A stretch of 64,000 nt of DNA, taken from positions 1 to 64,000 of the forward strand of contig NZ_CALEMI010000159.1 of NCBI RefSeq assembly GCF_937910895.1. Reading direction: 5' to 3'. Positions 8,642-59,418 of this stretch are shown here, piece by piece. The notes beneath the pieces are model-generated. The model did no database searches, was not told the DNA's origin, and was given only the letters and a program-made list of their open reading frames with translations. The position numbers and the translations under genes were made by a program. Within the stretch, counting starts at the first letter, position 1; each line of letters begins with the position of its first letter. The stretch is from an uncultured Dokdonia sp. (GTDB taxonomy: Bacteria > Bacteroidota > Bacteroidia > Flavobacteriales > Flavobacteriaceae).

Positions 8642-8959
8642 CAAAACTAAATGGCGCCTTTCCTCAACGAGAAAAATCTCTCGAACCTTCATAAGAGTAC
8701 ATTTTTATCCTTGAATCTTGATAAATAGTTCGCTTTCGCGAAAAGGATGCAGGACTTAAAAGAATTAGGAATTAGGACTAAAAAAGTCTTGAGTGGTGAG
8801 TCTTTGAGTAAAACAATCCCGAGTCGTATCGATCCTTCGACAAGCTCTGGACAAACTTTAGGAGAGATCACACAAGTAGCTACCTAATTCTCCAAAAGGG
8901 GAACTAAAAAGTGAATTATTCTTCTTCTGGGAGAAGGCTAGAATGAGGAAATCAATATC
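8642..8959. repeat. Intergenic region with palindrome and REP-like repeats
   Basis: Contains an iterated-palindrome copy (8731-8744), the module ATCCTTCGACAAGCTCTGG at about 8834 (related to CTTCGACAAGCTCAGTGTGAC at about 9599), CTCCAAAAGGGGAACT (about 8890), and CTTCTGGGAGAAGGCTAGAATGAGG (about 8924-8948). No gene is visible on either strand. Confidence 0.6.
8731..8744. repeat. Iterated palindrome, intergenic, imperfect right arm
   Basis: Core TTTCGCGAAA at 8734-8743, left arm CGC, right arm decayed to AA. Confidence 0.85.
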
Positions 8960-9490
8960 TTAAGACCAACCTTCTCTCTTTACTAAATTGGCGATGTGCA
9001 TATAGTGATGCATTCCGTGCCATGCGTATTGTCCTACGTTTTGACGCAAAGAGATCACTTTATTTCCATCGGGATGTACAAACGTGCGTTCTAGTTGCTC
9101 ATCGCTTAGGCAGCGTAGCAAACGCACCAATTTATAATGTACTGCTTCCAAATGTTTTAAAGACCACTCCACAGGCATTCCTTTGAGGTCTGGGAGGTCT
9201 GTCCACTCATTTTCCAGATACGGTTTAATGATTGGATTGTCTTCAGTAAGTGCCCACTTAAAACGAATATAACTGTGATGATGACTATCCGCTAGATGAT
9301 GTACCACTTGGCGTACGGTCCATCCTTCTGGTCGGTATGGAGTGTCAAGTCGAGTGTCAGGCATATCACTGACCATGTCACGTAATTGCGCGGGTAAGAC
9401 TTCTAGAATGGTGATCCATTCCTTTAATTTTTCGTCAGAAATCGTTTCTGGTGGCGTAAATCTGCCTATTGGGTATTTGAGTGCTTCCAT
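8960..9490 (-). CDS. YfiT/DinB-family putative metal-dependent hydrolase (bacillithiol-transferase-like)
   Basis: A 176-residue DinB-superfamily four-helix protein closest to Bacillus YfiT/BstA. The three metal-binding histidines are in place: the early one in RQVVHHLADSHHHSY and the late pair in YAWHGMHHYMHI. LRYPIGRF-type N-terminal wording (here ALKYPIGRFTPPE) and RPEGWTVRQVVHHLADSH are family hallmarks. Members transfer thiols or hydrolyse metabolites using a bound divalent metal; the substrate here is unknown. It lies downstream of the cyclophilin-FKBP gene but is separated from it by a strong terminator, so it probably has its own promoter. Confidence 0.9.
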   Translation of the reverse strand: MEALKYPIGRFTPPETISDEKLKEWITILEVLPAQLRDMVSDMPDTRLDTPYRPEGWTVRQVVHHLADSHHHSYIRFKWALTEDNPIIKPYLENEWTDLPDLKGMPVEWSLKHLEAVHYKLVRLLRCLSDEQLERTFVHPDGNKVISLRQNVGQYAWHGMHHYMHIANLVKREGWS

Positions 9491-9503
9491 ACCTCAAAAA
9501 TAG

Positions 9504-9534
9504 AAAAAGTGCCTATCGAAATAGACACTTTTTT
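9504..9534 (-). terminator. Rho-independent, probably bidirectional terminator
   Basis: AAAAAGTG-C-CTAT CGAA ATAG-A-CACTTTTT forms a strong hairpin with one internal mismatch and flanking A/T tracts on both sides. It lies downstream of the cyclophilin-FKBP gene on the minus strand. Confidence 0.75.
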
Positions 9535-9620
9535 ATAAGTAGTTATCCACAGTTTATACAACTAGGATCGTATGTATGTTTTGTTTCTGAGTACGCCACT
9601 TCGACAAGCTCAGTGTGACA

Positions 9621-9633
9621 TTTCGCGAAAGCG
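9621..9633. repeat. Iterated palindrome, intergenic, left arm missing
   Basis: TTTCGCGAAAGCG, directly preceded by the CTTCGACAAGCTCAGTGTGAC module. Confidence 0.85.
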
Positions 9634-9654
9634 TATAAAACACGTATAGAAAAC

Positions 9655-10587
9655 TTACTTTACAGCAACAAGTTCCACATCAAAAATAAGGGTTGCATCT
9701 GGAGGAATTACTCCACCAGCACCACGACTTCCGTAACCTAAATTTGAAGGAATGACTAAACGTGCTTTGTCTCCTACACCTAATAACATAATCCCTTCAT
9801 CCCATCCTGCAATGACTTGTCCTTGATTGATAGGAAAATCAATCGGTGCATTACGCTTGTACGAACTGTCAAAGACTGTCCCGTCAGGTAATTGTCCTTT
9901 ATAATGTACAGAAACCGTTTGCCCAGAAGCTGGTTTTGCACCGTCTCCTTTATGGATCATTTTATATCTAAGACCACTTTCTGTTTTTTCAAAACCAGCG
10001 GCTATTTTATCTAATTCGGCTTCTTGTGCTGCTTTAGCTTCGGCGATTCTTAGTTCTCTAGCACCTTCAAAAGTTCTAAATGCTTCGATCGCGTTCCAAG
10101 CTTCTGCTTCAGCTCCTTGACGTATAATCGTCACTTTGTCCATCGTATCTCCTTGCTCAATCGCATCGACCACCTCTTGTCCTTCGATCACAGATCCAAA
10201 CACGGTGTGCTTACCATCTAACCAAGGTGTTGCTACGTGTGTGATAAAAAACTGACTTCCATTAGTGCCAGGTCCTGCATTTGCCATACTTAATTTACCA
10301 GGTGCATCATGGATCAATTCTGGGTGAATCTCATCATCAAACTGGTAGCCTGGACTTCCTGTTCCTGTTCCTTGAGGACATCCTGCTTGTACCATAAAAT
10401 CAGGAATGACTCTATGAAATTTTAATCCGTCGTAATAAGGAGTTCCTTGTGGCTTAGCGCCATTTTCCATATTTCCTTCGGCTAGTGCTACAAAATTCCC
10501 TACCGTTCCTGGAGTTTTTTTGTGCTCTAATTGTGCTACTATCTCGCCTTTTGGCGTACTAAATTTTACGTAAATACCGTCTTGCAT
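9655..10587 (-). CDS. Cyclophilin-FKBP fusion peptidyl-prolyl isomerase
   Basis: A cytoplasmic dual immunophilin of 310 residues. Residues about 5-160 form a cyclophilin domain ([45 protein letters not shown]). Residues about 160-205 form an alanine/glutamate-rich linker helix. Residues about 205-310 form an FKBP domain ([51 protein letters not shown]). No signal peptide is seen. Both domains catalyse proline cis-trans isomerisation and act as foldases. Cyclophilin-first fusions are known from Flavobacterium relatives as dual-family immunophilins, so the arrangement is rare but not new. Active-site residues of both domains look intact. Confidence 0.93.
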
Positions 10588-10644
10588 TCGTTCCGTTTTT
10601 TAATAAAGTGCAAAGATAGTTATATCCTAATGAAGGGTAAAGAA

Positions 10645-12024
10645 TTAGCCATTCGTTTTTTTGAAACTACTGAAGTATTTTTTGGCTTCCTTCATTACTC
10701 TGGGTGCCAAATATAAGGTCGCAAACATAGTAGGAATCGCCATAAGTGCAAACACGCCGTCAATTAGATTAATCATCATACTAAGCGATGTGGTGGCGCC
10801 TAACATAATACTCGCTACATAAAAAATATTGTAATACTTCTTATTTTTCGCGCCAGCTAGAAAGCTTAAACTCTTAGATCCATAATAGGAGTAAGAGAAT
10901 AGTGACGAGATGCTAAATACGGCAATACAAACCAATAATATATATTTTCCTACCGATGGGATCGCTTTCGCGAAAGCGGTTGCCGTAAGGCTCACTCCGT
11001 TCACATCAGTACTTTCCCAAACGCCTGTGACCAGAATTGCCAGTGCGGTTAGCGTACAAACAATCAGTGTATCGATAGCGGGACCTAGCATCGCCACGAG
11101 CCCTTCGCGGATAGGCTCTGCAGTTTTGGCGGCACCATGCGCCATGGGTGCGGTACCAATTCCCGCCTCGTTAGAAAAAGCACCTCGCTTGATTCCTAAT
11201 ACAATCAACGCTCCTAAAATCCCTCCGTATAAGGGTTCGCCTTTATATAAACTTGCCGAAAAAGCATCGGTAATAATCATCTTAAAATACATGGGGACGA
11301 CTTCTATATTTTGAATAAGAATATACATCACGGCTATAAAATAGAGTCCTACCATAGAAGGCACGAGTCGAGATGCTGTCTTACTAATGCGATTCAAACC
11401 TCCTAAAACCACAATAGCTGTAATGATCACAAGCGTCCCTCCTATGATTAAATTCGTCTTGAGACCGACCTCAATGCCTTGTGGTTTTAGTAAAATATCA
11501 TTGATTGCTTGCGTTAACTGATTAACATTAAAAACGGGTAATGCACCAATAAGAGCTGCGACGCTAAAAAAGACAGCAAGCGGTTTCCACGCTTTGCCCA
11601 TGCCTTCCGTAATAAAATACATCGGTCCTCCTTGTGCGACGCCTTCACTATCGGTACCGCGATACATCACAGCAAGGCTTCCTGTAAAGAACTTAGTCGC
11701 CATCCCCACGACAGCACTTACCCACATCCAGAAAACCGCACCAGGCCCTCCTATCGCAATAGCCACAGCAACCCCAGCAATATTTCCCATTCCAACAGTA
11801 GCAGACAAAGCAGTTGTTAACGCCTGAAAATGACTAATTTCTCCAGGATCATCTGGATCATCATATTTTCCTCGTAACACTTGAACGGCATGTCCTAAAT
11901 ACCGAAAAGGCAAAAAACGAGAATAGATCAACAGAAAAAGTCCGCCTCCTATTAATAAAACCAATAGAGGAATCCCCCAAACGGCACTTGAAAAAGCAGC
12001 TATTATCGCGTCTAATTTTTCCAT
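10645..12024 (-). CDS. Alanine/glycine:cation symporter (AGCS family)
   Basis: A 459-residue inner-membrane transporter with about ten hydrophobic segments, taking up alanine or glycine with sodium or protons. Family signatures are GNIAGVAVAIAIGGPGAVFWMWVSAVVGM (seen in part), GGPMYFI, RGAFSNEAGIGTAPMAH and FSISSLFSYSYYG. Length matches AlsT/DagA relatives. Near residue 345 the iterated palindrome (10963-10978) encodes AFAKA in a loop. The adjacent isomerase gene is 57 bp downstream on the same strand, so they may share a transcript. Confidence 0.92.
   Translation of the reverse strand: MEKLDAIIAAFSSAVWGIPLLVLLIGGGLFLLIYSRFLPFRYLGHAVQVLRGKYDDPDDPGEISHFQALTTALSATVGMGNIAGVAVAIAIGGPGAVFWMWVSAVVGMATKFFTGSLAVMYRGTDSEGVAQGGPMYFITEGMGKAWKPLAVFFSVAALIGALPVFNVNQLTQAINDILLKPQGIEVGLKTNLIIGGTLVIITAIVVLGGLNRISKTASRLVPSMVGLYFIAVMYILIQNIEVVPMYFKMIITDAFSASLYKGEPLYGGILGALIVLGIKRGAFSNEAGIGTAPMAHGAAKTAEPIREGLVAMLGPAIDTLIVCTLTALAILVTGVWESTDVNGVSLTATAFAKAIPSVGKYILLVCIAVFSISSLFSYSYYGSKSLSFLAGAKNKKYYNIFYVASIMLGATTSLSMMINLIDGVFALMAIPTMFATLYLAPRVMKEAKKYFSSFKKTNG
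10963..10978. repeat. Iterated palindrome inside the AGCS transporter gene
   Basis: Perfect CGCTTTCGCGAAAGCG, read as A-F-A-K-A in the transporter. Confidence 0.9.
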
Positions 12025-12127
12025 AAATAATGTGTCTCATTAATTGCTTAAATCTACAACTTATCGCCCTTTTTCTATAGATTAATTAATTAAACTATCT
12101 TCCCGCTTTGCAAATTTTAAAAATTAC

Positions 12128-13408
12128 ATGAAGAATCCTACGTGCGTTTTGATAAAAAAAAGATGCCTACACTTATCTATATTTTTTCTGTTATTCAGTA
12201 ATTTACAAGGTGTATTGGGACAAGAAAACACCTCCCCTATAACGATCGTTCCAGAGTTTGTTTTTGGTACTTCAGCCGCTTCCAATAAGACGTTTCCTGA
12301 ACGAAACCTGCAAACACAAGCAATTTTTAATCTGTTTTGGCATCACGAAAACAATCCCCAAAAGTGGGCACATTGGCTTCATAGTCCGCGTACAGGAATA
12401 AGTGTAGGCTATACCAATTTTGGAAACTCAGACCGTCTAGGAAGCGCATTTACCCTCATGCCTTTTTTGGAATTTAATGCATTTAAGAGTCAACGTCTAA
12501 CCACACAGATAGGTATAGGGACTTCGTATTTTACCAAGCAGTATGATTTTGAAACTAACTTTTTTAATCGGGCTGTCAGCACTGACTTCACATGGTCTTT
12601 CAGAGCGTTTATACACTATAATTTTTTACAAAGGGAAAAAGTAAACTATAGAGTTGGTGCTGGGATTTTTCATCACTCTAACGGACATACGAGATTACCT
12701 AATCAGGGATATAATTCGTTCTTAGTAAGTGTTTCTGCAGAGATCAAAAATGTAAAATATCGCGCTTACGCGAAAAATACCCAAACACTTGAAAAACCAG
12801 AAAGAACAGTTCAAAACTATATTGCCATACGAACAGGGATTGGTCAGAATGTATTTAGTGATGTGTCTATTTTTAATGAAAAGAAAGAAGTGTACACGCT
12901 TTCTGCCGAATACGGAAAAATCTATAACAAAACGCTTAAAATAGGTGTTGGTGCTTTTTATAGATTGTATGAGCATTACTATGATTACATCAATGATAAT
13001 GAATCATTAGTACAGGACGGAGAAGAATATGCTTCTTTACGAGATAATCCTTGGCATAATGCATCCAATTATGGGCTGTTTGTAAAAGGTGAATTATTGC
13101 TCAATCACGTAGGAATTGAGTTGCAATTTGGTACTAACTTCCATAAGCCTGCCTACGAGATAGATTGGAAAATTAATGAAGGATGGGATTTGGCACCTAG
13201 AGAAATACCCCCAGGATGGGTACTTGGCGAATTGAACTCTAAGTTTAAATTTAAAAATGCGATCAATACGCGTATAGGCCTTAAGTATTACCTTATAGGG
13301 ACAGATGCTGCTCCAAAACATAATCTATATGCAGGTGCTTTTATCAATGCAAATCTTGGACAAGCTGACTTTACAGAATTAGGTATTGGATATGTGCGAA
13401 GTTTTTAA
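12128..13408 (+). CDS. PagL-like lipid A 3-O-deacylase / acyloxyacyl hydrolase family outer-membrane protein
   Basis: A 426-residue exported beta-rich protein. An N-terminal hydrophobic segment (LSIFFLLFSNLQGVLGQ) is a signal peptide. The motif HHSNGHTRLPNQGYNSFLV at about residues 180-198 matches the PagL active-site pattern (H-x-SNG, then PN-x-G-x-N), where the histidine and serine form the catalytic pair in an outer-membrane barrel that removes an acyl chain from lipid A. The protein is about twice the size of proteobacterial PagL, with extra strands after the motif, as in other Bacteroidota members. Monocistronic; followed by tandem repeats. Confidence 0.75.
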   Translation: MKNPTCVLIKKRCLHLSIFFLLFSNLQGVLGQENTSPITIVPEFVFGTSAASNKTFPERNLQTQAIFNLFWHHENNPQKWAHWLHSPRTGISVGYTNFGNSDRLGSAFTLMPFLEFNAFKSQRLTTQIGIGTSYFTKQYDFETNFFNRAVSTDFTWSFRAFIHYNFLQREKVNYRVGAGIFHHSNGHTRLPNQGYNSFLVSVSAEIKNVKYRAYAKNTQTLEKPERTVQNYIAIRTGIGQNVFSDVSIFNEKKEVYTLSAEYGKIYNKTLKIGVGAFYRLYEHYYDYINDNESLVQDGEEYASLRDNPWHNASNYGLFVKGELLLNHVGIELQFGTNFHKPAYEIDWKINEGWDLAPREIPPGWVLGELNSKFKFKNAINTRIGLKYYLIGTDAAPKHNLYAGAFINANLGQADFTELGIGYVRSF

Positions 13409-13410
13409 TG

Positions 13411-13645: not shown

Positions 13646-13648
13646 TCA

Positions 13649-16177
13649 CTAATAATAGATTCTAACCACTGTATTGAAAGTCGTTTCTAAAGCGGTTCGC
13701 TTAAACTCTTGTACAGTAGATGTTCCGTCTACACGGAAAAAATTCTCAATAGTATTATTGGTATTTGCTACATTCCAAACAGAAAAACCAAGATCTGCAC
13801 GCCATCGTTTCTTTGTTTTGAATTGATACATCGCCGAAAAATCTGCTCTCAGATAGTCTTCTAAGTTGCTACTGTTTGCATCTGCAAAATTGATTTGATT
13901 ATTAACAACCTCAGCACCTTCTATAGGTAATGTGGTGGGTCTCCCTGTTCGCCAATTGATGCCAAGTGCCATTTTGAGGTTATTGGTCGTAAAAGCCGTT
14001 CCGAAAGTGACCGAATGTGTGATATCAAAATTACTAGGGAAGGTTACTTCTGATAAGGCTTCAAAGGTGTACTCATTGTTGATAAAAGAATAGCTCAGCC
14101 AAGAATTAAACTTCCCATAACGTTTACGCACCAATACATCTACGCCTGTGGCTTCATAGCTTCCAGTGGTTCTAGTGAACTCATACTTAGTTTTAAATTC
14201 CTGACTCTGGGTAGTTATACCGTCTACATTTTTATAATAAGCATCTACGTTTAGTAAGAGCCCATAACGACTGTAAGTGATGCCTAAAGATCCTTGCTTA
14301 CTTTCTATCACAGGAATATCATCATCATTAGCGAGTTGCCATCTTCTACGTTCTATACCTAAAAAATCATTTTGAAAATTAATAAACTGAGAGGTGTTTT
14401 GATGTTTAAATTCTCCTAAGGCTTCTAAAGAAAAATAGTCCCAAAACTGATGGTTGATACTCAAACGTGGCTCTACTAATATTTTTTCAAATTTATCTAT
14501 ATATGTAAAACGCCCGCCCGCATTGATCCGTGTATTTTTATCTGCTGATTTATAAGCTATTTGTGAAAAAACAGCATGCGTCCGTACTACATTAGATCTC
14601 AATTCTCTAAACAAAGGTTCGTCAATATCATTAAGATTGGTCACTTCGGTTTCTACCACTTGATATCCGCTATGAAGGCTCAACCTATTATTAAATGTAT
14701 ATGCTGTTTGCAGTTTTATTCCAGTTTCTGAGATTACGTTTTCTTGCAAAAATCGTTGAGAGGCGAGTAGGTTTGCATTAAATCCTCGTAACGTATAATC
14801 GGTTTCATAGACGTGAATACTTGTTTTAAAAAAGGGATTCCACGTACGTTCATAAAAAATACCGCCTGCAATACTATTTTGGGTTAAACTACTTTCTCTT
14901 GTTTCCAATACGGTGTCTACATTGGTCGTTTCATTAAAACTCAATTCGTTTTGGATGTTTATAAAATTAAGTCGAATCTGATCTTTATCGGAGATTTTAT
15001 AGAGCCATCGTAACGAGGTATCGTAAAAATCAAATTTTTGATTTGAATTTAAGATCGCAATATCATTATCCTGAACTTCGGTTTCTTGGGTAATTCTATC
15101 AAAAAAAGAGGTATAAGTTGGCGTGGTAACAAGATCACTCAGCGATTTTCGTACCCCAATCTGTATGGAAGATTTTTCAGAGAACGGGATATCTACAAAT
15201 GCATCTGCGCTTAAAAGATTAGCGCCCAAAGAGGCTTTAAAATCGGTAGTGATTTCGGTGTCTGTTTGCATAGCAATAGTTCCTGAAACGCCGTCTGTAT
15301 ATGCGACATCACTTCCATTTTTTATAATAGAAACGGTATTTGTAATTTGAGGATTAAATCCTGAAATCAGCCCAAAGAAATGCCCTGATTGGTACATCTT
15401 AATATCATCCCATAACAGTAGATTTTGATCATTACTACCGCCTCGTATATTAATATTTGAAATGGTCTCGTCTACACTTATAATACCAGGGAGTGCTTGT
15501 ACAGATTGCAAGACATCGGTCTCTATTAATCCAGGAAGGATACTGAATTTTGAAAAATCTATTTGTGTACTCCCGTTACTCTTTTTATCAATTCCTTTGA
15601 CAAGATAGCCTGTCAAAACAACCCTAGACAAAGCCGTTTCATCTGGATACAGATGAATCACACCACAGCTCTCTTTACTAAAAAAATCACTTTTCCGAAG
15701 TACATTTTTATACCCGATATGTCGTATTTCTATAAAAGTATTGGAGAGATTTTCTGTGAATTCAAAATATCCAGTATCATCGGTAGTAATTGATTCATTT
15801 TTGGTAGTTAACGTAGCGCCCACAATAGGCCCTTTTGTTTCAACATCTCTTAAATAACCACAAATACGAACTTGTGATTTTTCTTTGGTGATGTAATAGA
15901 TTCGAGTACCTACTTTGGTAATTTTAAGTCCTGTTGTCTTTTGTAGATATGATAGGCTTTCTTGCAGAGTCCGCTTTCGCGAAAGCGGTAAAAGAAATAT
16001 TCCCTCTAGTTCTTCTACGGCATAATTAAACTGGATATCCTGCGCTGTTTCTATCGCAGTCATGAACTCTAGGATAGAGATTTTTTGATCAGATTCTTGA
16101 GCCAATCCTACATAGGAAATGCTTAAGAAAATGACGGTATATAGATATCGTTTAATTTGTTGCGTCATGTATGACAA
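13649..16177 (-). CDS. TonB-dependent outer-membrane receptor with STN signalling domain
   Basis: An 842-residue transducer-type receptor. Signal peptide at about 10-27 (YLYTVIFLSISYVGLAQ); STN domain about 30-95, which contacts the FecR-type regulator; carboxypeptidase-like regulatory domain about 105-185 (GPIVGATLTTKNESITTDDTGYF); plug about 205-310 (QALPGIISVDETISNINIRGG); then a 22-strand-type barrel ending in a hydrophobic-aromatic C-terminus (VVRIYY). The substrate is unknown. It is the last gene of a sigma/FecR/receptor operon, and its start overlaps the FecR gene. An alternative start at 16168 (MTQQIKRY) shortens the overlap. The palindrome at 15971-15988 encodes LSRKR inside the STN domain. 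Confidence 0.92.
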   Translation of the reverse strand: MSYMTQQIKRYLYTVIFLSISYVGLAQESDQKISILEFMTAIETAQDIQFNYAVEELEGIFLLPLSRKRTLQESLSYLQKTTGLKITKVGTRIYYITKEKSQVRICGYLRDVETKGPIVGATLTTKNESITTDDTGYFEFTENLSNTFIEIRHIGYKNVLRKSDFFSKESCGVIHLYPDETALSRVVLTGYLVKGIDKKSNGSTQIDFSKFSILPGLIETDVLQSVQALPGIISVDETISNINIRGGSNDQNLLLWDDIKMYQSGHFFGLISGFNPQITNTVSIIKNGSDVAYTDGVSGTIAMQTDTEITTDFKASLGANLLSADAFVDIPFSEKSSIQIGVRKSLSDLVTTPTYTSFFDRITQETEVQDNDIAILNSNQKFDFYDTSLRWLYKISDKDQIRLNFINIQNELSFNETTNVDTVLETRESSLTQNSIAGGIFYERTWNPFFKTSIHVYETDYTLRGFNANLLASQRFLQENVISETGIKLQTAYTFNNRLSLHSGYQVVETEVTNLNDIDEPLFRELRSNVVRTHAVFSQIAYKSADKNTRINAGGRFTYIDKFEKILVEPRLSINHQFWDYFSLEALGEFKHQNTSQFINFQNDFLGIERRRWQLANDDDIPVIESKQGSLGITYSRYGLLLNVDAYYKNVDGITTQSQEFKTKYEFTRTTGSYEATGVDVLVRKRYGKFNSWLSYSFINNEYTFEALSEVTFPSNFDITHSVTFGTAFTTNNLKMALGINWRTGRPTTLPIEGAEVVNNQINFADANSSNLEDYLRADFSAMYQFKTKKRWRADLGFSVWNVANTNNTIENFFRVDGTSTVQEFKRTALETTFNTVVRIYY
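15971..15988. repeat. Iterated palindrome inside the TonB-receptor gene
   Basis: Perfect 18-bp CCGCTTTCGCGAAAGCGG, read here in a second frame as P-L-S-R-K-R. Confidence 0.9.
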
Positions 16178-23179: not shown

Positions 23180-24116
23180 GATACTTCAATACGTTTTTTT
23201 CGATTCTGGCTTCTATATTCGATACGTCCGCTTTCGCGAAAGCTTCCCCAGTAATATTTTCATATAACTCAATGTATCGGTCTGACACGGTTGTGATGTA
23301 TTCATCAGACATTTCTGGTACGGTTTGCCCTTCTAATCCTTGAAAGTTGTTAGCAATTAGCCATTGTCGTACGAACTCTTTAGAAAGCTGTTTTTGCGCT
23401 TCTCCCCTCGCCTGACGTTCCTTATAACCCTCTGCATAAAAATAGCGAGAAGAATCGGGTGTATGAATCTCATCGATGAGTACAATCTCGCCATCAGCGG
23501 TTTTGCCAAATTCATATTTGGTATCTACCAAGATCAGTCCGCGACTCGCGGCTATCTCAGAACCTCTTTGAAAGAGTTTACGGGTATAATCTTCTAACAC
23601 GCTATAATCTGCTTTAGAGACGATCCCTCTCTTTATAATATCTTCGCGAGAGATATCTTCATCGTGATCACCCATCTCCGCTTTGGTGGCAGGCGTAATG
23701 ATCGGATTGGGAAACGCATCGTTTTCTTTCATTCCTTCTGGCATAGACACCCCACAAAGCATTCTTTTCCCCGCTTTATATTCGCGTGCCGCATGACCCG
23801 ACATATACCCACGAATCACCATTTCTACCTTAAAAGGTTCACACCGTTTTCCAATCGCCACATTGGGATCAGGGGTTGCCACGAGCCAGTTAGGGACGAG
23901 ATCTTCGGTATCCTTCATCATCTTGGTGGCAATCTGATTTAAGATTTGCCCTTTATACGGAATCCCTTTTGGCATCACCACATCAAAAGCACTCAATCGG
24001 TCGGTAGCGACCATGAGTAGTAAATCATTTTCAAGGGTATATACTTCGCGAACTTTTCCTTTGTATAAATCCTTTTGTCCTGGAAAATTAAAGTTAGTGT
24101 CAATGATGGTGTTCAT
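23172..24116 (-). CDS. purC: Phosphoribosylaminoimidazole-succinocarboxamide synthase
   Basis: SAICAR synthase, step 7 of IMP synthesis, joins aspartate to CAIR using ATP. The 314-residue form (the eukaryote/Bacteroidota-like longer type) shows [53 protein letters not shown] and [10 protein letters not shown]. All are expected nucleotide- and CAIR-binding regions. The palindrome at 23229-23243 falls in the C-terminal region and encodes AFAKAD within [11 protein letters not shown]. It is followed by an overlapping lipoprotein gene. Confidence 0.96.
23229..23243. repeat. Iterated palindrome inside purC
   Basis: CGCTTTCGCGAAAGC, read as E-A-F-A-K-A-D in the enzyme's C-terminal part. Confidence 0.9.
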
Positions 24117-25607: not shown

Positions 25608-25949
25608 ATGGCAAGCGGTTTTTATGAGATACCTCGGTAAATTATTTTAGATTTGTTATACCATGTATACTTTGAAATTACCAAAAAGAAAATGATGATT
25701 TTTTTCTTTATATGAAGAAGAAAACTAAAGCATACCATTAGATACGTTTTCTTTTTATTCTGAAATAGAAAGGAAAAAAGGGCATTTTATTACAGTACTT
25801 TCAAAGTATACAGGTATTATATAGCAAAGTACGAAATTTTTGAGCGTATATACCTACTCAAAAGTTATCGTGTTATTAAAAATAATAAACAATTTGGGGA
25901 TGGTTGTTTTTTTGCTTTCGCGAAAGCGGACTACCCTTCACATATAGCT
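25608..25949. other. Divergent intergenic region with a MITE-like inverted-repeat element
   Basis: An AT-rich spacer between divergent genes. About 25654-25821 is bounded by imperfect terminal inverted repeats; the best part is a perfect 13-bp pair, GTATACTTTGAAA (25665-25677) and TTTCAAAGTATAC (25799-25811). An iterated-palindrome copy lies at 25914-25928, 21 bp before the SAM-hydrolase start. No protein-coding gene is visible. Confidence 0.5.
25914..25928. repeat. Iterated palindrome, intergenic
   Basis: GCTTTCGCGAAAGCG, 21 bp upstream of the SAM-hydrolase start codon. Confidence 0.9.
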
Positions 25950-26783: not shown

Positions 26784-27079
26784 TGCTCGTACGAATTGTC
26801 AAAATGCGCTTTCGCGAAAGCGAAATAGAAACCTTCTTAACCAATTTTGAGGTGGTCAAAGAAAGCATCAGAGCGTTTCAAGGCTGTCAGTTTTTAGAAT
26901 TGTATAGAGGGCAGGATGATACGCGTATCTTCTTCACCTATAGTTATTGGGATTCTGCCGAAGCTTTAGAAAACTACAGACATTCAGAGTTGTTTAAAGG
27001 GGTTTGGGCAACTACAAAACCCATGTTTTCAGATAAACCTGAAGCTTGGAGTGTAGATAAACTAGCGAGTTTGGAATGA
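26783..27079 (+). CDS. Antibiotic-biosynthesis-monooxygenase-like (ABM) dimeric alpha/beta-barrel protein
   Basis: A 98-residue ferredoxin-like-fold protein of the ABM/YgiN type: VRIVKMRF at the start, FLELYRGQDDTRIFFTYSYWDSAEALENYRHSELF in the middle. Members are small cofactor-free oxygenases or stress proteins; the substrate is unknown. The start overlaps the SAM-hydrolase stop by 1 bp. The iterated palindrome at 26807-26822 encodes RFRES near the N-terminus, in a frame different from most other coding copies. Confidence 0.8.
   Translation: MLVRIVKMRFRESEIETFLTNFEVVKESIRAFQGCQFLELYRGQDDTRIFFTYSYWDSAEALENYRHSELFKGVWATTKPMFSDKPEAWSVDKLASLE
26807..26822. repeat. Iterated palindrome inside the ABM gene
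   Basis: Perfect CGCTTTCGCGAAAGCG, read as R-F-R-E-S. Confidence 0.9.
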
Positions 27080-30918: not shown

Positions 30919-31797
30919 TTAATAAGTTTTAAGATAGACACCTATTTTCTGACTTAACGGTATGCTGGCTTTCACAAGAGGTAATCTTACGTGATCTTCA
31001 CAAAGATTCAATTGTGATAATAATGATTTGATTCCTGCTGGATTTCCTTCTTCAAAAATAAGATCTATTCCTGGCATGATTTGATAATGTGTTGTATACG
31101 CTTTCGCGAAAGCGCCCTCTAACCCATTCCTAATCATTCCTGAAAATGATTGTGTCAATCCCTGTCCTATTACAGAAATCACGCCATCACCTCCTGCAGA
31201 AATCATAGGCAATGCCAACATATCATCACCCGAAATAACCAAAAAATCTTCTGGTCGATCTTTTAATAAACGTAAGGCTTGTGTGATGTTGCCCGCTGCT
31301 TCTTTGATCGCTATAATATTTTTAAAGTCGCTGGCGAGACGTAACGTAGTTGCCGCTTCCATATTACTCCCCGTGCGCGAAGGCACGTTATACATAATAA
31401 TGGGAAGAGAAGATGCCTCTGAAATTGCCTTATAATGTGCATAAATCCCTTCTTGCGAAGGTCTGTTGTAATAAGGAGACACCGATAGAATTGCATCAAA
31501 GCCATCCAAAACGCCGTCTGTAGAAAGTGCGACTACAATAGCTGCGGTATGATTTCCTCCCAAACCTAAAACGAGTGGTAAGCGTCCTTTATTTACAGAT
31601 ACGATATGCTGTTTGATTTGTTTTTTTTCTTCCTCAGAAAGTGTAGCACTCTCGGCAGTAGTACCTAAAGCCACTAGATAATCAGTTCCTTGATTTATGT
31701 TGTGTTCAATAAGTCGTGTGAGTCCATCAAAATCGATAGACAAATCTTCATTAAAAGGAGTAATCAGGGCGACTCCTGTACCACGGAAGGATTGCAT
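30919..31797 (-). CDS. dapA: 4-hydroxy-tetrahydrodipicolinate synthase
   Basis: Condenses pyruvate with aspartate semialdehyde in lysine and meso-diaminopimelate synthesis. The 292-residue TIM barrel shows TPFNEDLSIDFDGL, GTTAESATLSEEEK, GLGGNHTA, YYNRPSQEGIYAHY, YNVPSRTGSNM and the Schiff-base Lys165 in IAIKEAAGN, followed by ISGDDMLALP. The palindrome at 31099-31114 encodes GAFAKAYT in the C-terminal helical part. It is 1 bp downstream of the DUF6913 gene, with which it is co-transcribed. Confidence 0.95.
   Translation of the reverse strand: MQSFRGTGVALITPFNEDLSIDFDGLTRLIEHNINQGTDYLVALGTTAESATLSEEEKKQIKQHIVSVNKGRLPLVLGLGGNHTAAIVVALSTDGVLDGFDAILSVSPYYNRPSQEGIYAHYKAISEASSLPIIMYNVPSRTGSNMEAATTLRLASDFKNIIAIKEAAGNITQALRLLKDRPEDFLVISGDDMLALPMISAGGDGVISVIGQGLTQSFSGMIRNGLEGAFAKAYTTHYQIMPGIDLIFEEGNPAGIKSLLSQLNLCEDHVRLPLVKASIPLSQKIGVYLKTY
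31099..31114. repeat. Iterated palindrome inside dapA
   Basis: Perfect CGCTTTCGCGAAAGCG, read as A-F-A-K-A. Confidence 0.9.
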
Positions 31798-34803: not shown

Positions 34804-35145
34804 TTATAGTAGCTTTAAAAATTCTTGTTCAGAAATCATTGTAATCCCCAATCCTTCTGCTTTTGCACGTTTACTCGACCCCATATTATCTCCTGCTATC
34901 AAAAAGGAAGTTTTTGGAGAGATCGAGCTGGGTACCTTCCCGCCATTATCTTCTATTAATTTTTCAACTCGTTACGAGACATTTCAAAAACGCCAGATAC
35001 CACAAACGTTTTTTCTTGTATAACTGCAATAATTGCTCGAGCGAAAGTAGGTATAAATCTGAATAATTCACCATTAAATCCTCTTTTACTAACAAAGCAA
35101 CCACCTCGCCTTCAATCCCTTCTATATTTCCTGTCATAAAACATA
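34804..35145 (-). pseudogene. ligA 3'-end relic with internal deletion
   Basis: On the minus strand this repeats two separate parts of the intact ligA 3' end. 34804-about 35018 matches about 35921-36140 (BRCT domain and stop, ending QEFLKLL-stop). About 35025-35130 matches about 36480-36585 (helix-hairpin-helix region). The roughly 340 bp between them are missing. There is also a 1-nt deletion in a T tract near 34960. It cannot encode a functional domain. It sits between two copies of the same membrane gene, showing that a block [ligA 3' end plus membrane gene] was duplicated in tandem and then decayed. Confidence 0.85.
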
Positions 35146-35206
35146 TAGAATTTCATATCGATCCTATCAAGGGGACTTAACAGACTAGCTATTTTATATC
35201 ATATTA

Positions 35207-35920: not shown

Positions 35921-38226
<2,306 letters not shown>

Positions 38227-42373: not shown

Positions 42374-42388
42374 GCTTTCGCGAAAGCG
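42374..42388. repeat. Iterated palindrome, intergenic, with a diverged partner
   Basis: GCTTTCGCGAAAGCG 31 bp before the YigZ-family start. A diverged relative, TTTCGTGAAA, lies at 42309-42318 at the end of the transporter gene. Confidence 0.88.
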
Positions 42389-46303: not shown

Positions 46304-46323
46304 TACGCTTTCGCGAAAGCGTA
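46304..46323. repeat. Iterated palindrome, intergenic, fully symmetric 20-mer
   Basis: TACGCTTTCGCGAAAGCGTA, a perfect 20-bp palindrome between the serine hydrolase and phosphatase genes. Confidence 0.92.
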
Positions 46324-50049: not shown

Positions 50050-51667
50050 ACACCTTCTCTCCACCAACATAAGTCGCTTTGACTTCTAGGTTGGGGATTT
50101 TGTCTTCGTCTACGGTCATAATATCTTGATCCATGATAATAAAGTCAGCGAGTTTTCCTGTTTCAATGCTTCCTTTTTCCCCTTCTTCAAAATTTGAATA
50201 GGCCGCCCATATCGTCATTCCTTTTAAGGTTTCTTCTCGGGTAAGGGCATTTTCCATTTGATACCCGCCTTCTGGGTATTGTTTTAAATCTTTACGAGCT
50301 ACCGCTGCATAAAACGTATAAAATGGGCTGACTTGCTCTACAGGAAAATCAGTTCCTAAAACGACAATCCCTGATTTATTTAATAAATCTTTAAAGGCAT
50401 ACGCCCCTTTAATACGTGCTGCTCCTACTCTATCTTCTGCCCAATACATATCACTGGTGGCGTGTGTCGGTTGTACGGATGGAATAATCTTTTGATTAAA
50501 AAAATCAAAATCTCCTTGAGAAACTACTTGTGCGTGTTCTACCTTCCATCGTGGGTCTTCTATAGTTTGCAAGGCTTCTTTGTAGGCTCTTAATACCACT
50601 ACATTAGCACTATCCCCTATCGCATGGGTATTCATTTGAAAACCAGCTCCTGCAATTCGCTTTGAGAGGTTTTGAATTTCTGACACTGGTGTAATCATTG
50701 CTCCAAAATGTCCGTCTTTATCAGTATACGGTTCTTTTAAAGCAGCACCTCTAGAACCCAAAGCGCCATCTCCATATACTTTTACAGAACGTACATTGAG
50801 ATAGTCTGTTTTTACTTTTCCTGAGGTTAAATAATGATCTAGGTTTTCTGGTTTGTTACTAATCATAGCATAGACACGCATCTTTAAATCGCCAGCCGTT
50901 TGTAGACTGTCGATCAACTCGATAATAGATTTATCGAGTCCTGCATCATTTACCGTAGTTAATCCGTAGGAGAAACATACTTCTTGCGCCCCTTTTAGGG
51001 ATGCTATATTTTGTGATCTACTTGCTTTTGGCATGACAGCGTCTACTAGTTCTTGCGGTCGGTCTACCAATACACCTGTAATCTTTCCATCTTCTTTGAC
51101 AATTTCTCCTCCGGCTACAGTGGTTGCTTCGGTAATTCTTGCAAGGTATAAGGCTTTTTGATTGACTAGATAGGCATGACCATCTACACGCTCTAATGCC
51201 ACCGGTAGATTTGGAAATAAGGCATCTAGTTTTTCTTTGGTAGGGAATTCCTTAACGTCCCAGTCGTTTTGATCCCATCCTCTTCCTCTTAAGAAGGTAG
51301 TGGCTGGGTTTGCTTTCGCGAAAGCGGACACCCGCTCCAACACTTCATCATAACTTGTTGTACCGACAAGATCTACGACTTGCAGATTTTGACCTAATCC
51401 GTAAAAATGACAGTGTCCATCAATGAGTCCTGGCAAGACCGTTTTTCCAAAAGCATCCACAACTTCTGGGGCGGTATAGGCTTCTGTAATTTCTTGTGTG
51501 GTGCCTACAGCGACAAATTTTCCGTCTTTGATGGCAAAGGATTCCGCTTTCGCGAAAGCGTCATTCACCGTATATACCGTTGCATTGACAACAATAAGGT
51601 CTACTTCTTGTTTTGTAGTACAAGAGATTGTAAACGTAAGTAGGAGTAAAAAAGTAAAGATTCGCAT
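50039..51667 (-). CDS. YtcJ-like amidohydrolase lipoprotein
   Basis: A 542-residue metal-dependent hydrolase of the amidohydrolase_3/YtcJ type, lipoprotein-anchored (LLLLTFTISC, Cys16). Metal motif LPGLIDGHCHFYGLG; later FLRGRGWDQNDW, MNTHAIGDSAN, KVEHAQVVS and VLGTDFPVEQVSPFY, and the closing FIIMDQDIM. The substrate is an amide, urea or similar C-N bond, not predictable. Two copies of the iterated palindrome encode NDAFAKAES near the N-terminus and SAFAKANP at about residue 120. Complete active site. Confidence 0.92.
   Translation of the reverse strand: MRIFTFLLLLTFTISCTTKQEVDLIVVNATVYTVNDAFAKAESFAIKDGKFVAVGTTQEITEAYTAPEVVDAFGKTVLPGLIDGHCHFYGLGQNLQVVDLVGTTSYDEVLERVSAFAKANPATTFLRGRGWDQNDWDVKEFPTKEKLDALFPNLPVALERVDGHAYLVNQKALYLARITEATTVAGGEIVKEDGKITGVLVDRPQELVDAVMPKASRSQNIASLKGAQEVCFSYGLTTVNDAGLDKSIIELIDSLQTAGDLKMRVYAMISNKPENLDHYLTSGKVKTDYLNVRSVKVYGDGALGSRGAALKEPYTDKDGHFGAMITPVSEIQNLSKRIAGAGFQMNTHAIGDSANVVVLRAYKEALQTIEDPRWKVEHAQVVSQGDFDFFNQKIIPSVQPTHATSDMYWAEDRVGAARIKGAYAFKDLLNKSGIVVLGTDFPVEQVSPFYTFYAAVARKDLKQYPEGGYQMENALTREETLKGMTIWAAYSNFEEGEKGSIETGKLADFIIMDQDIMTVDEDKIPNLEVKATYVGGEKVYGE
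51312..51326. repeat. Iterated palindrome inside the amidohydrolase gene (first of two by position)
   Basis: GCTTTCGCGAAAGCG, read as S-A-F-A-K-A-N. Confidence 0.9.
51545..51560. repeat. Iterated palindrome inside the amidohydrolase gene (second by position)
   Basis: CGCTTTCGCGAAAGCG, read as D-A-F-A-K-A-E near the mature N-terminus. Confidence 0.9.
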
Positions 51668-54606: not shown

Positions 54607-57600
54607 TTAGTTACCGCCTTCTTCTATAGAAGCGTTGGTCTTGGCTTCGTTTGTCTTAATAATAGCGAGTTGTTGCTGTGCTTCTTTTACAATAGCTGGA
54701 AAGTCTGAAAAGTTGGTAATCACACTTTCCAAAATATAGGTAGCTTGATAGGCGTCTTCCAAAGCATAAAAGTTTTTTGCCATAAGCACAAGCCCTTTGG
54801 CACCAAATTCCTTATATCCGCTATAATCTCTTGCTAGTACTTGTACAGTCGTATTGGATCCTTTAAAATCATTGGCTTTATGTTTAAAGTAGGCATCGTA
54901 GTACAATGCTTCTGCAGCGAGTGCACCTGTAGCGATGGTTTGCACCTTCGCATAGGCTGTTTTTGCACGATCTTCATCGCCTGTTTTAATCGAAGCTCTT
55001 GCAATAATCACTTGGGCATCACTTTTTACAGCATTATCGATTTTTGTATTGGTCAATACTTTTTCTGCATACGTAACGGCATCTGTATAATTTTCTAGCT
55101 CATAGTGAGACTTCATCAGATTCGATTGTGCAAAGATGACATTCTGTGGAAAATCGGCTTCTGTTTCTAAGCGTTTTAAAACAGGAATTGCTTTTGCATA
55201 GGCTTTCTGGGTTAAGAATACTTGTCCTAACCGCGCGAGGGCTTGCTCTGTAAATTCAGATCGTTCTTTGGCGATCACAAACTGATAATGCGGAATGGTT
55301 GTGGGATAGTCCGCTTTCGCGAAAGCGAGTTGACCCAAATAAAAATGGGCTTTCAAAGCATGTTGTCCGTTGGGATAACTTTCTAGGTATTCATCCAGCA
55401 AACGTGTGGCTTGCGTCGCATTATTCTCCAAATATTGTTTTTCTGCCGAAGCATACGCGGCATCATCCAACTCTGCGTCTTCTACATCTATAAAATCGAG
55501 TGTACTCACCCATTGTCCGTACTCATTGACACGTCCTAAGTCTATATAAATAAGTTTTGCAGTGGTGACCGCTTGTAGGGCTTCTGGCGTACCTGGATAA
55601 TCGGCAGCTACTTTTTTAAGAATCGTAATGGCTTGATCTGACTGATTGTTATTGTCATAAATCAATGCTTTTTTAAGTAATGCACGAGATACATACGAAC
55701 TTCCAGAGACTTCACGCACCAGCTGATCATAGGCTGCAATCGCCTGATCGTTATTTCCTTGAGAGACATATACGTTTCCTAATTCATACAAGGCATCGTC
55801 TCTATAACTTGATTTTGGAAAGCTTTGCGCGAAATTTTTCAACCCATTAATCTTATCTGCATTTCGGTTGACAAATCCGTAACTCATTGATTTTTGAAAA
55901 GTGGCATAATCACTATCGGTTACATTGATTTCGATAGCTTTGTTATAGGCTTCAAGGGCTGGCCAATATTTACTAGAAATAAAACGGCTATCGCCTAAGC
56001 GTAAGTACGCATCATTGAGACGGACTTGGTCGTTTGTATTTTTTTTTGTGAATTTTTCAAAATATGTCGCTGCATTTTCATAATCTTTATCAGAAAAATA
56101 AGCGTATGCTAGATTATAATTGAGGTCTTGATATTCTGGTGTTGCAGTAGCGTTGCTGTTTTGCAAATACTGTTTATAGCCTATCACTGCTTCTTTATGA
56201 TTGCCCAATACATAATCAGACTCTGCATTCCAATAGGTGGCTCTTGCGACAAATTGCTCATCTCTAGGTTCTTCTAAAGATTTTTTAAACATGGCTTGGG
56301 CGTCTATATAATTTCCAGCATTATAAAGCTCTACACCTCTGTAAAAAGCTACTTTTTGGTAGGCTACTTTACTTTCAAAAGAGTTATTTTTTTCTAATAA
56401 CACCAAGGCTTCTTTGTAGTTTTTTGACGTAATATAAGAATCAATAAGAAGGGCTTCAAACTCTTCTTTTGCGGGCGTATTAGGATATTCCTTGATATAG
56501 TTGGCAAGGACTTGAGGAACGGTTTGGTAGGCATTTCCAATCTCATAACTCAATTTTGCATAGTTCAAACCACTGTCTTCTTTGATTTTTGCATCAAAAT
56601 CCATTTCTGACGCATTTTTAAACGCATTTAAGGCTTGCTGCTTTTTATCTGTTTTTAAATAGGATTCTGCTAGATGGTAGTAAGCGTTTTGAGCGACACT
56701 GTTTTTACCATCTATAATTTTATTAAATTCATTGATCGCGTTTTCATAATCGCCTTGTTTGTAATAGGCATATCCTAACTGGTAGTAATCGGTGTTATTC
56801 CACTTTCCTCTTTTTCCTTTGTATTCTTTTAAATACGGTAAAGCTTCTGCATACTTTTCTTGATTGAAGTAACTTTCCCCTATAATCTTATTGAGTTCTG
56901 ATTTTTCTTTTGGATTTGCTGTAGGGAGTTGTGAGGTCCCTTCGGCAATGGCTTGGTCAAATTTTCCTAATTTAAAATTAAGATCGGCTTTAAAGTAAGC
57001 GAGTTCTTCTTTGTAATCTTCTTTATCTTCTACGGCGTCAAAAAGTTCATCTGCCTCTTGGTAATCATCGCCTTCATACGCCATGAATCCTAAGTAATAT
57101 TTGGCTTGTGATCCATACTTTTGAGAGTCACGTACACGGTTTAAAAACTTTTTTGCCTGATCATATTGTTTACTTTTATAATAGGAATATCCATTATTAA
57201 AATCGAATGTTTCTCTAGCGCTTCCTGTCAAACTTCCTTCATCAACCAGATCATACCACTTACGAGCATAGGCATATTTTCCATTATCAAAATAAAAAGA
57301 AGCGACATCTAGATATGCTGAGTTACGCTTAGTACTTGTCGGATATTCATTGACAAAACTTTGCATGAGATTATCGGCTCCTTGTTGATTTAAACGAACA
57401 GCTGCATTTGCAATATAATAAGCACAATCCCCTTGAATGGTGGTATCATTTGTTTCGTCTTTGACTTCTCCAAATAAGGTTTGTGCTGCGAGATACTGCT
57501 GACTATTATAAAGCGATAATGCCTTGTTGTATTTTACAAGATCGTCTGTGTAAATAGCCGTTTGCTGTGCAGAGAGTATACTTGTATAAAGTAAAAATGC

Positions 57601-57627
57601 GGTAAGCACCGTGATTAATTTCTGCAT
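54607..57627 (-). CDS. Giant exported TPR protein
   Basis: A 1006-residue exported protein: signal peptide ITVLTAFLLYTSILSAQ, then about 20 or more TPR/Sel1-like helix pairs over nearly the full length (for example DCAYYIANAAVRLNQQGADN, YYQLGYAYYKQGDYENAINEF, DDALYELGNVYVSQGNNDQAIAAYDQLV). The wording resembles BamD/YbgF-type envelope scaffolds. The iterated palindrome (55312-55327) encodes LAFAKADYP in one repeat. It is the first gene of a pair with the barrel protein. Role unknown; a periplasmic scaffold for the barrel is inference. Confidence 0.85.
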   Translation of the reverse strand: MQKLITVLTAFLLYTSILSAQQTAIYTDDLVKYNKALSLYNSQQYLAAQTLFGEVKDETNDTTIQGDCAYYIANAAVRLNQQGADNLMQSFVNEYPTSTKRNSAYLDVASFYFDNGKYAYARKWYDLVDEGSLTGSARETFDFNNGYSYYKSKQYDQAKKFLNRVRDSQKYGSQAKYYLGFMAYEGDDYQEADELFDAVEDKEDYKEELAYFKADLNFKLGKFDQAIAEGTSQLPTANPKEKSELNKIIGESYFNQEKYAEALPYLKEYKGKRGKWNNTDYYQLGYAYYKQGDYENAINEFNKIIDGKNSVAQNAYYHLAESYLKTDKKQQALNAFKNASEMDFDAKIKEDSGLNYAKLSYEIGNAYQTVPQVLANYIKEYPNTPAKEEFEALLIDSYITSKNYKEALVLLEKNNSFESKVAYQKVAFYRGVELYNAGNYIDAQAMFKKSLEEPRDEQFVARATYWNAESDYVLGNHKEAVIGYKQYLQNSNATATPEYQDLNYNLAYAYFSDKDYENAATYFEKFTKKNTNDQVRLNDAYLRLGDSRFISSKYWPALEAYNKAIEINVTDSDYATFQKSMSYGFVNRNADKINGLKNFAQSFPKSSYRDDALYELGNVYVSQGNNDQAIAAYDQLVREVSGSSYVSRALLKKALIYDNNNQSDQAITILKKVAADYPGTPEALQAVTTAKLIYIDLGRVNEYGQWVSTLDFIDVEDAELDDAAYASAEKQYLENNATQATRLLDEYLESYPNGQHALKAHFYLGQLAFAKADYPTTIPHYQFVIAKERSEFTEQALARLGQVFLTQKAYAKAIPVLKRLETEADFPQNVIFAQSNLMKSHYELENYTDAVTYAEKVLTNTKIDNAVKSDAQVIIARASIKTGDEDRAKTAYAKVQTIATGALAAEALYYDAYFKHKANDFKGSNTTVQVLARDYSGYKEFGAKGLVLMAKNFYALEDAYQATYILESVITNFSDFPAIVKEAQQQLAIIKTNEAKTNASIEEGGN
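55312..55327. repeat. Iterated palindrome inside the giant TPR gene
   Basis: Perfect CGCTTTCGCGAAAGCG, read as L-A-F-A-K-A-D within a TPR helix. Confidence 0.9.
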
Positions 57628-57813
57628 ATAGATTGTTTTTGATATGATGTATTAAGATTGGGTTTGTTATGGTATTCAAAGATACTTTTCTTCTTTATGC
57701 ATAACGGGAGAAATGGCGTATAATTATATAGAGTTTTAAAAAGGAAATTAACAATTGGAAATACAACTATGAATATGCTTCATTATACTACTCATTAACA
57801 CAGATTAAAATTA

Positions 57814-57821
57814 TATATTTG
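57814..57821 (+). promoter_or_regulatory. -7 promoter box (TATATTTG)
   Basis: TATATTTG fits TAnnTTTG and lies 28 nt before the ATG at 57850. No convincing -33 TTG is seen. Confidence 0.4.
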
Positions 57822-57849
57822 AGCCACTTAAAAAATAAAAAAGATTTAC

Positions 57850-59067
57850 ATGAAATACATTTTATCGTTTTTTGCCTGTTTATTCATTAGTAGTTTACAT
57901 GCTCAAATAGTTTTTGAAGAAGGATATTACATCAATAATGCAGGTGAAAATATCGAGGGTTTTATTAAAAATTCTGATTGGAAAAATAATCCTACTGATT
58001 TTGAATTTAAGGCCTCTATGGCTAGCGATGATTCAAAAAACCTCTCTATAAAAGAAGTCAAAGAATTTGGTATTACAAATGTATTTAAATATGAACGCCA
58101 TCAAGTAAAAATAGATAGATCTTCAAATGATTTAAAAAATTTAGGATATAGTAGAGAACCTGAGTTTAAAGAAGAAACTGTATTTCTAAAAGTACTCGTA
58201 GAGAATGATGTCATTTTATATAGATATACCGATTCTGATTTAACTACGTTCTTTTATAAGTCAGGAGAAAATTTATATACACTTGTGTATAAACGCTATA
58301 TAAATATTCAGAAAAAACTAGATGAAAATAGTTTTTACAAACAACAACTGGCTTCTGATGTAAATTGCACAGATAAAAAAATGCCTAATGTAGAGAACTT
58401 ACGATACACTCAGTCTTCGCTTGTAAAATATTTTACTGCGTATGGTGTATGCACAGGTAGTGCTACAAATAAGACCTTTGTTAAAAAAGTAGAGAATTCT
58501 TTTAATATCAAGTTGGTTGCAGGAGTACAGTTTACTAATTTCTCTGTAGATTCTAATATGAGAAGAAGTGTTGATTTTGGAAGTAACGTTGGATTTGTTC
58601 CAGGCATTGAGTTTGAATATTTATTACCATTTAATGCTCAAAAATGGGCGTTATTTCTTGATTTTAGATACCAAAGTTACGAGGCAGATAGAACTACCGA
58701 AGTATTTGTGCCAAGCTCTAATGTATTCGTTACTCGATCTAATGAAGCATCATATAAGGGTATCGATGCAGGTTTTGGAGTTAGACATTATTTTTTACTT
58801 TCTGAAAATTCTAAATTTTATCTAGGACTCAACTATTCTATAGACTTCAGTAATGATACAGAAGTTATTTATGAAGATGCCGAAGATTTTATTGCTTCTA
58901 AAGCTACAGGAGTTTTAGGTATTGGAGCTGGATACGCTTATGATCGATTAAGTGCAGAGTTTAGGTATTATACCAATAGAAATAGTTTAGGAAATGAATT
59001 TCTTTTTCAAAATTCAGAATATAGCAACATTACGTTTAGCTTATCCTATAGACTTGCTAGATTTTAG
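57850..59067 (+). CDS. Exported protein with C-terminal outer-membrane barrel
   Basis: A 405-residue protein: signal peptide ILSFFACLFISSLHAQ, a mixed N-terminal domain of about 200 residues (GYYINNAGENIEGFIKNSDW, YRYTDSDLTTFFYKSGENLYTLVYK), then PorT-like or OmpA-like barrel strands from about 215 (FNIKLVAGVQFTNFSV, VGFVPGIEFEYLLPF, GVRHYFLLSENSKFYLGLNYS) ending with SLSYRLARF. This layout is common in Flavobacteriia; no specific function is known. Monocistronic, with its own promoter box. Confidence 0.7.
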   Translation: MKYILSFFACLFISSLHAQIVFEEGYYINNAGENIEGFIKNSDWKNNPTDFEFKASMASDDSKNLSIKEVKEFGITNVFKYERHQVKIDRSSNDLKNLGYSREPEFKEETVFLKVLVENDVILYRYTDSDLTTFFYKSGENLYTLVYKRYINIQKKLDENSFYKQQLASDVNCTDKKMPNVENLRYTQSSLVKYFTAYGVCTGSATNKTFVKKVENSFNIKLVAGVQFTNFSVDSNMRRSVDFGSNVGFVPGIEFEYLLPFNAQKWALFLDFRYQSYEADRTTEVFVPSSNVFVTRSNEASYKGIDAGFGVRHYFLLSENSKFYLGLNYSIDFSNDTEVIYEDAEDFIASKATGVLGIGAGYAYDRLSAEFRYYTNRNSLGNEFLFQNSEYSNITFSLSYRLARF

Positions 59068-59418
59068 AAACAGTCTATTTAACGATGTAGCAATTATAAG
59101 AAGGAAAATAACAATTTCATATTTTAGAACAAACTACTATTCTATGGGCGTTGTAATGAGTACGCTTTCGCGAAAGCGTATAAAACTAACATTCCCTATA
59201 AAAACTTGATTCAAGTGCGGTGATCATTAGAAAACCTGTATTTTTATTTCGATTCTTATAAAAAGAACTAAACGAACCAAGAAAAAAGAATTGTGTCTTA
59301 TCTTTTATTTTATTATAAATAAAAGTGAGATAGAAACACATGATTCGTGTTATTTTAGAGTTTACTTTGGTATAATTCATAAGATTTAATCTATTTTTAT
59401 CGTTAGTTTTAATTCTAT
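59068..59418. other. AT-rich intergenic region with a palindrome and an inverted repeat
   Basis: Contains the perfect 20-bp iterated palindrome (59161-59180) and an AT-only-type 9-bp inverted repeat, CTTTTATTT/AAATAAAAG at 59302-59325 with a 6-nt loop. No gene is visible on either strand. The ftsE promoter must lie in the last part but I see no clear consensus. Confidence 0.45.
59161..59180. repeat. Iterated palindrome, intergenic, fully symmetric 20-mer
   Basis: TACGCTTTCGCGAAAGCGTA, identical to the copy at 46304-46323. Confidence 0.92.

Follow-up and report, generated by a model that had tools for sequence, protein, structure and literature searches.

Several described systems of iterated words bear on the sequence reported here. 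Uptake sequences of Haemophilus influenzae lie to 65% in open reading frames (ORFs), are evenly spaced and have no orientation bias, according to one account (PMC1939737). In Neisseriaceae they are described as occurring as dialects (PMC3630211), and foreign uptake words have been used to detect integrative and conjugative elements of Neisseria (PMC7371117). The cyanobacterial highly iterated palindrome HIP1 (GCGATCGC) is found in genes and spacers across a clade. We analyzed a palindrome, TTTCGCGAAA and its longer forms, which is iterated in a 64,000-nucleotide stretch of an uncultured Dokdonia sp. (contig NZ_CALEMI010000159.1, positions 1 to 64,000; hereafter the window). Like HIP1, it is an iterated palindrome of genes and spacers that marks a clade, but it is about twice as long, has a preferred context and has fewer copies per kb than HIP1 with about one per kb. 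With the DNA uptake sequences (DUS) of Neisseriaceae and the uptake signal sequences (USS) of Pasteurellaceae it shares a copy number in the hundreds, placement both inside and between genes, even spacing, a weaker context around the core, lineage dialects and foreign dialects on integrative elements. Unlike them, it is a palindrome of 14–16 bp and occurs in carriers without a type IV pilus ATPase. The palindrome resembles HIP1 in form and may work like a DNA uptake sequence in function. Its conservation and spacing indicate that it is a genome-wide, dispersed recognition site kept by selection on the DNA.

The window contains 15 exact copies of the 10-mer TTTCGCGAAA, compared with a mean of 0.15 and a maximum of 2 in 100 dinucleotide shuffles. 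The original prediction, made from the letters of the window, had counted the same 15 copies and estimated far less than one by chance. It had also described most copies as extended, two of them to a 20-mer, and our recount agrees: 12 of the 15 have the 14-mer form GCTTTCGCGAAAGC, eight the 16-mer form CGCTTTCGCGAAAGCG and two the 20-mer form TACGCTTTCGCGAAAGCGTA. The diverged forms it had placed at 999, 39916 and 42309 are all present, and one-mismatch forms number ten on the + strand. In the whole genome of 4.81 Mb, where chance would give a count near background, we found 1092 copies of TTTCGCGAAA, about 50 times the 22 copies of the control, the pattern read backwards. The iteration of the palindrome is confirmed and larger than first reported.

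Among 299 sampled genomes of the family Flavobacteriaceae, five genomes belonging to three genera contain 559–1107 copies of the 10-mer, and the next-highest count is 34. Each of the 28 genomes examined, which come from three genera (four Dokdonia, 23 of a second genus with 288–857 copies each and one of a third), has 288–903 copies of the 14-mer GCTTTCGCGAAAGC. A 14-mer count across named relatives and carriers, in which 29 genomes were searched, gave 903 copies for Dokdonia pacifica, 685 for a Dokdonia metagenome-assembled genome (MAG) and 0–5 for 18 other genomes (Aequorivita, Ulvibacter, Altibacter, Xanthomarina, Zunongwangia, Maribacter and others). A LigA tree of 46 rows places the seven palindrome genomes that it includes on one side of a single branch (SH-aLRT 90), in keeping with a single origin. 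Judging by the copy numbers of 685, 857, 878 and 903 in the four Dokdonia genomes (about 3.0, 3.6, 4.8 and 5.5 Mb, respectively), accessory DNA seems poor in palindromes. A viral scan returned at least 120 stretches with the palindrome, nearly all single-site among the 80 listed. No paper describing the palindrome was found in the literature searched, which mostly excludes subscription journals and preprints.

The 15 copies in the window are as follows (window positions; no strand assigned).

8734..8743: 10 bp, intergenic
9621..9630: 10 bp, intergenic; D. pacifica also has a copy, in a diverged spacer
10963..10978: 16 bp, in the sodium:alanine symporter (AGCS) gene, frame AFAKA
15971..15988: 18 bp, in a TonB-dependent receptor gene, frame LSRKR
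23230..23243: 14 bp, in purC, beyond the Pfam domain, frame AFAKA
25914..25927: 14 bp, intergenic
26807..26822: 16 bp, in an ABM-domain gene, frame RFRES
31099..31114: 16 bp, in dapA, frame AFAKA
36230..36239: 10 bp, in ligA, frame FAKA
42374..42387: 14 bp, intergenic
46304..46323: 20 bp, taken as intergenic; overlapped by a 105-residue ORF without a Pfam match
51312..51325: 14 bp, in an amidohydrolase gene, frame AFAKA
51545..51560: 16 bp, second copy in the amidohydrolase gene, frame AFAKA
55312..55327: 16 bp, in a TPR gene, frame AFAKA
59161..59180: 20 bp, intergenic

Nine copies are genic, in the same coding regions that had been named in the original prediction, and translation reproduced its readings: seven copies are read as FAKA, one as RFRES and one as LSRKR, with all three frames in use. 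The only close pair consists of the two copies in the amidohydrolase gene, 234 bp apart. The dapA copy is retained in D. pacifica, the Dokdonia MAG and a second Dokdonia genome (G206), and dapA of two further genomes (G076 and G242) has the same length without the copy. In ligA, whose product is 92% identical to that of D. pacifica, the copy sits in a poorly conserved stretch (11th percentile of 6-residue windows over 80 rows). The intact ligA is adjoined by broken LigA C-terminal-like pieces at 34807–35191 on the - strand, with 80% identity over residues 607–662 and internal stops.

The comparison with D. pacifica reveals how strongly the palindrome is held. Ten of the 11 alignable 14-mer sites, out of 12 in the window, are identical, compared with 6.6% of all 14-mers and 3.9% of equally GC-rich ones; the 20-bp copy at 46304..46323 is not retained. 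The core shows an identity of 0.981 and the flanks 0.785, no better than the average of 0.794. Other genome pairs kept 4 of 5, 2 of 2, 3 of 6 and 4 of 5 14-mers against a background of 1.7–2.7%. The view that the constraint acts on the DNA therefore stands, on the basis of the three frames, the other residues in most motif-free orthologues and a core that is kept while its flanks diverge. Distant orthologues carrying the same residues without the palindrome were not seen, and the orthologues from other genera lack the motif.

Orthologues without the palindrome (of dapA, ligA, amidohydrolase and others) mostly align ungapped, with equal length and other residues, so most copies probably arose by substitution. 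This comparison decides between gained insertion and substitution, which the original prediction had left as a check, and we rejected insertion as the source for most sites. Gapped alignments were seen at window position 46309, two sites elsewhere (L146_8830 and L139_8845) and a few distant comparisons. The equal lengths also speak against a mobile palindromic repeat, of the repetitive extragenic palindromic (REP) or miniature inverted-repeat transposable element (MITE) kind. Together with an intrinsic terminator, such a repeat could account for a palindromic and dispersed word that is 2–6 times denser in Dokdonia spacers than in ORFs, and we consider this pair of explanations very improbable. 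About two thirds of the copies are within ORFs: 86 of 127 Dokdonia 14-mers, or 0.16 per kb, and 70 of 101 in G206. The terminator was rejected on the spacers themselves, as convergent spacers are the poorest (0.33 per kb, compared with 0.51 in divergent and 1.04 in tandem spacers) and no downstream T-run is preferred, T5 occurring within 20 nt at 10 of 254 site-strands and A5 at 41.

The iterated unit is a sharp palindrome of 14–16 bp, often extended, with a preferred context that reaches about 30 nt in both directions. Counts in 440 kb of G206 were 101 perfect 14-mers, 21 forms with a single mismatch, 28 with two mismatches and 36 with three; 400 kb of the carrier genome G190 gave 49 perfect 14-mers and 20, 23 and 43 such forms, respectively. 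Outside the core, G206 sites prefer C at -8 (83%), A or C at -9 and T at -10 (75%), followed on the 5' side by a C-poor tract of about 30 nt that fades out by about 60 nt and has its mirror image on the opposite strand. The tract accompanies coding and intergenic sites alike and is weaker in G190. The form of the site suggests recognition by a DNA-binding protein dimer or by a receptor that makes long contacts. The original prediction had pointed to the central TCGCGA. That hexamer was rejected as the iterated unit, as it is not enriched outside the long palindrome: 48 such occurrences against 57.9 expected for TCGCGA as a whole in 440 kb of G206, and 83 against 72.8 in G190.

Other iterated words were found among the relatives. 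G076 has 605 copies of ATTTCCGAAG against 21 for controls, the highest of 120 genomes; several other genomes have 100–180 against about 20–34, and many show no excess. The 9-mer TTTCCGAAG was counted 125 times in 440 kb of G076, in both orientations (71 and 54) and with A-/T-rich flanks, spaced only slightly more evenly than by chance (coefficient of variation, CV, 0.86; P 0.04), and TTTCGCGAAA is absent from the same 440 kb. High densities of TTTCCGAAG were also found in Arcticiflavibacter, with 12 copies in 22 kb, and in Psychroserpens burtonensis, with 10; CTTCCGAAG is similarly dense in Aequorivita, with up to 10 copies, and in Ulvibacter, with eight. Dokdonia has hardly any copies of these words. 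TTTCCGAAG and CTTCSGAAG thus make two more iterated words in Flavobacteriaceae (G076; loci L025, L023 and L010–L013). The words form lineage dialects, with the palindrome in one clade and TTTCCGAAG or CTTCCGAAG in other genera, and the common TTC-GAA layout and use suggest that the palindrome and the relatives' words may belong to one system.

The relatives' words and the context both bear on two further explanations. In the first, which Elhai put forward for HIP1, a solitary methyltransferase together with methyl-directed repair creates and maintains a HIP-type palindrome. This would fit an iterated GC-bearing palindrome, and the model is described as predicting that density saturates at about one copy per kb (PMC4390886). 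The same account has the HIP core likewise not over-represented outside its context, so the TCGCGA result alone does not speak against a HIP-type origin. We nevertheless regard such an origin as rather improbable, as the conserved unit of 14–16 bp plus context far exceeds the length of a methyltransferase site and the G076 word is non-palindromic. Slightly less improbable, though still doubtful, is a two-way Chi-like signal of recombination or repair, whose palindromy would serve breaks arriving from both sides and whose C-poor, G/T-rich tract 5' on each strand would be a place for loading RecA. RecA prefers GT-rich DNA, and Chi has a similar density to that of the palindrome, about one per 3.4–4.4 kb; the strand-symmetric switch in composition around the sites fits as well. 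Chi words known to us are short, non-palindromic and strand-biased, whereas the Dokdonia word is long and palindromic, hence without orientation, and TTTCCGAAG in G076, if it belongs to the same system, is mixed in orientation.

Spacing also sets the palindrome apart from random placement. In 380 contiguous kb of G206, gaps between 10-mers have a CV of 0.58 against 0.99 by chance, with none of 5000 simulations as low and a shortest gap of 602 bp. The first 100 sites listed for G190 gave a CV of 0.68 (0 of 5000 simulations) and no gap below 1 kb, where 12.8% were expected; in G319 such gaps are scarce, 5.4% against 19.8%. G190 consists of a single 3.16-Mb contig, and the stretches sampled around it all contain copies, at 1–7 per 20 kb. 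Even spacing, perfect symmetry, a sharp 14-mer and retention in 28 of 28 genomes would all agree with binding by a protein dimer that serves chromosome maintenance or the nucleoid, one site per stretch of chromosome. This is the chief rival explanation, which we consider unlikely though a serious one. The relatives' words differ from the palindrome, being non-palindromic or differently spaced, which would be odd for a conserved housekeeping protein, and this explanation has no candidate protein. Sites of the parS, Noc and SlmA type are likewise symmetric and of similar length but, to our knowledge, number tens and are regionally biased, whereas the palindrome numbers hundreds and is evenly spread.

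In genomes with low counts many of the 14-mers are clustered: 16 of 16 in G076, 18 of 19 in G287 and 16 of 17 in G051. G144, G042 and G314 contain pairs at identical intervals (933, 2446 or 2447 bp), and other 14-mers in G144, G042 and G310 are dispersed. In G076 the clustered copies belong to an integrative element of some 85 kb (G076:C3, about 31–116 kb; L358–L362), parts of which are common to several genera and which brings the palindrome into genera outside the clade. It encodes a large serine recombinase, a methylase-like protein and a Fic protein, with further ORFs resembling metal-efflux proteins as judged by eye, and it contains two copies of TTTCCGAAG, the host's own word. Against homologous segments, its palindromes were kept in 8 of 10 (all 14-mers 23%), 3 of 4 (24%), 2 of 3 (4%) and 4 of 5 (40%) cases; the closest segment showed no excess (9 of 11 against 83%). 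Six of seven losses are single transitions.

From these observations we favor, tentatively and at a little below an even chance, a role of the palindrome as a DNA uptake sequence, by which cells undergoing natural transformation would recognize DNA of their own kind. DNA uptake was among the functions listed in the original prediction and is the favored candidate here by number, conservation, spacing and dialects; its hexamer core did not prove to be the iterated word. An envelope component of a pilus-independent competence machinery would prefer fragments with the palindrome and its G/T-rich 5' context, readable on either strand owing to the perfect palindromy. The machinery would comprise an outer-membrane barrel with a DUF5689 protein, followed by ComEC, DprA and RecA. 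New copies would originate from point mutations where codons or spacers tolerate them, in line with the substitutions seen in most comparisons, and would spread because tagged alleles re-enter the population via transformation. A nearby second copy would add little, which may account for the over-dispersion, and the different words of other genera would restrict exchange.

Flavobacteriaceae competence without a pilus is described for Riemerella, with ComEC, DprA, ComF and RecA plus four unusual proteins that include an outer-membrane protein and, adjacent to it, a DUF5689 protein (PMC8459023). R. columbina is reported to prefer its own DNA in uptake, in a study that looked for the word only among the raw k-mers of highest frequency (PMC7965970). 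Among 30 genomes, 29 have DUF5689, including all seven palindrome genomes, which also have ComEC; the exception, G030, lacks both. In the second genus DUF5689 is present in 22 of 23 genomes, and the one without it is 77% complete. An ORF with a barrel-like end lies upstream of the DUF5689 gene at 29 of 29 loci. The barrel tree nearly follows the palindrome: 25 of 26 palindrome rows share one fork with G008, and G190 stands separate; the last barrel tree leaves out G076 and G313 by length. The DUF5689 protein is mosaic (L203, L208 and L393), a single frame of G076 containing two DUF5689 matches, and D. pacifica has a shorter C-terminal part than the window's genome.

Several observations weigh against the uptake reading. 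Known uptake sequences are described as non-palindromic (PMC1939737). ComEC and DUF5689 are present in 29 of 30 genomes regardless of the palindrome, so their presence says little. The type IV pilus ATPase PilB, with strong matches in 7 of 30 genomes, is present in non-carriers and absent from three of the seven carriers (G206, G010 and G190); we rejected pilus-linked uptake on this mismatch and do not class the palindrome among the known pilus-based uptake systems. No reader protein was found, and DUF5689 was rejected as the reader, as it does not track the palindrome and its trees do not follow it. The tree of its N domain requires three label changes, and G325 combines a foreign-type N domain with 634 palindromes (the N-domain trees leave out G076, with its doubled domain, and the last of them the window's genome, G000, by length). 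The word was never lost in the 23 species of the second genus, though competence is often lost elsewhere. The 94 sites of G319 are not significantly even (CV 0.915, P 0.24), and G190 spacers are not clearly enriched (ORFs 0.13; tandem 0.15, divergent 0.16 and convergent 0 per kb). Most of 80 named loci lack a clear iterated word, and none was found in 40 kb of G611, a putative Riemerella relative and one of 57 among 395 genomes that matched a published 16S primer.

Somewhat more tentatively still, this may be the first uptake sequence that is palindromic and the first from the Bacteroidota. It would be read by an importer other than a pilus, made up of an outer-membrane barrel and a surface lipoprotein, and the genus-specific words (GCTTTCGCGAAAGC, TTTCCGAAG and CTTCSGAAG) would hinder the exchange of genes between marine Flavobacteriaceae. 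If the palindrome does serve uptake, DNA self-recognition would extend beyond pilus systems to abundant marine bacteria, the words would predict gene-exchange partners, and they would offer a handle on the receptor of Flavobacteriaceae competence. If it does not, hundreds of exact 14-bp sites per genome under strong selection would call for an unknown binding protein.

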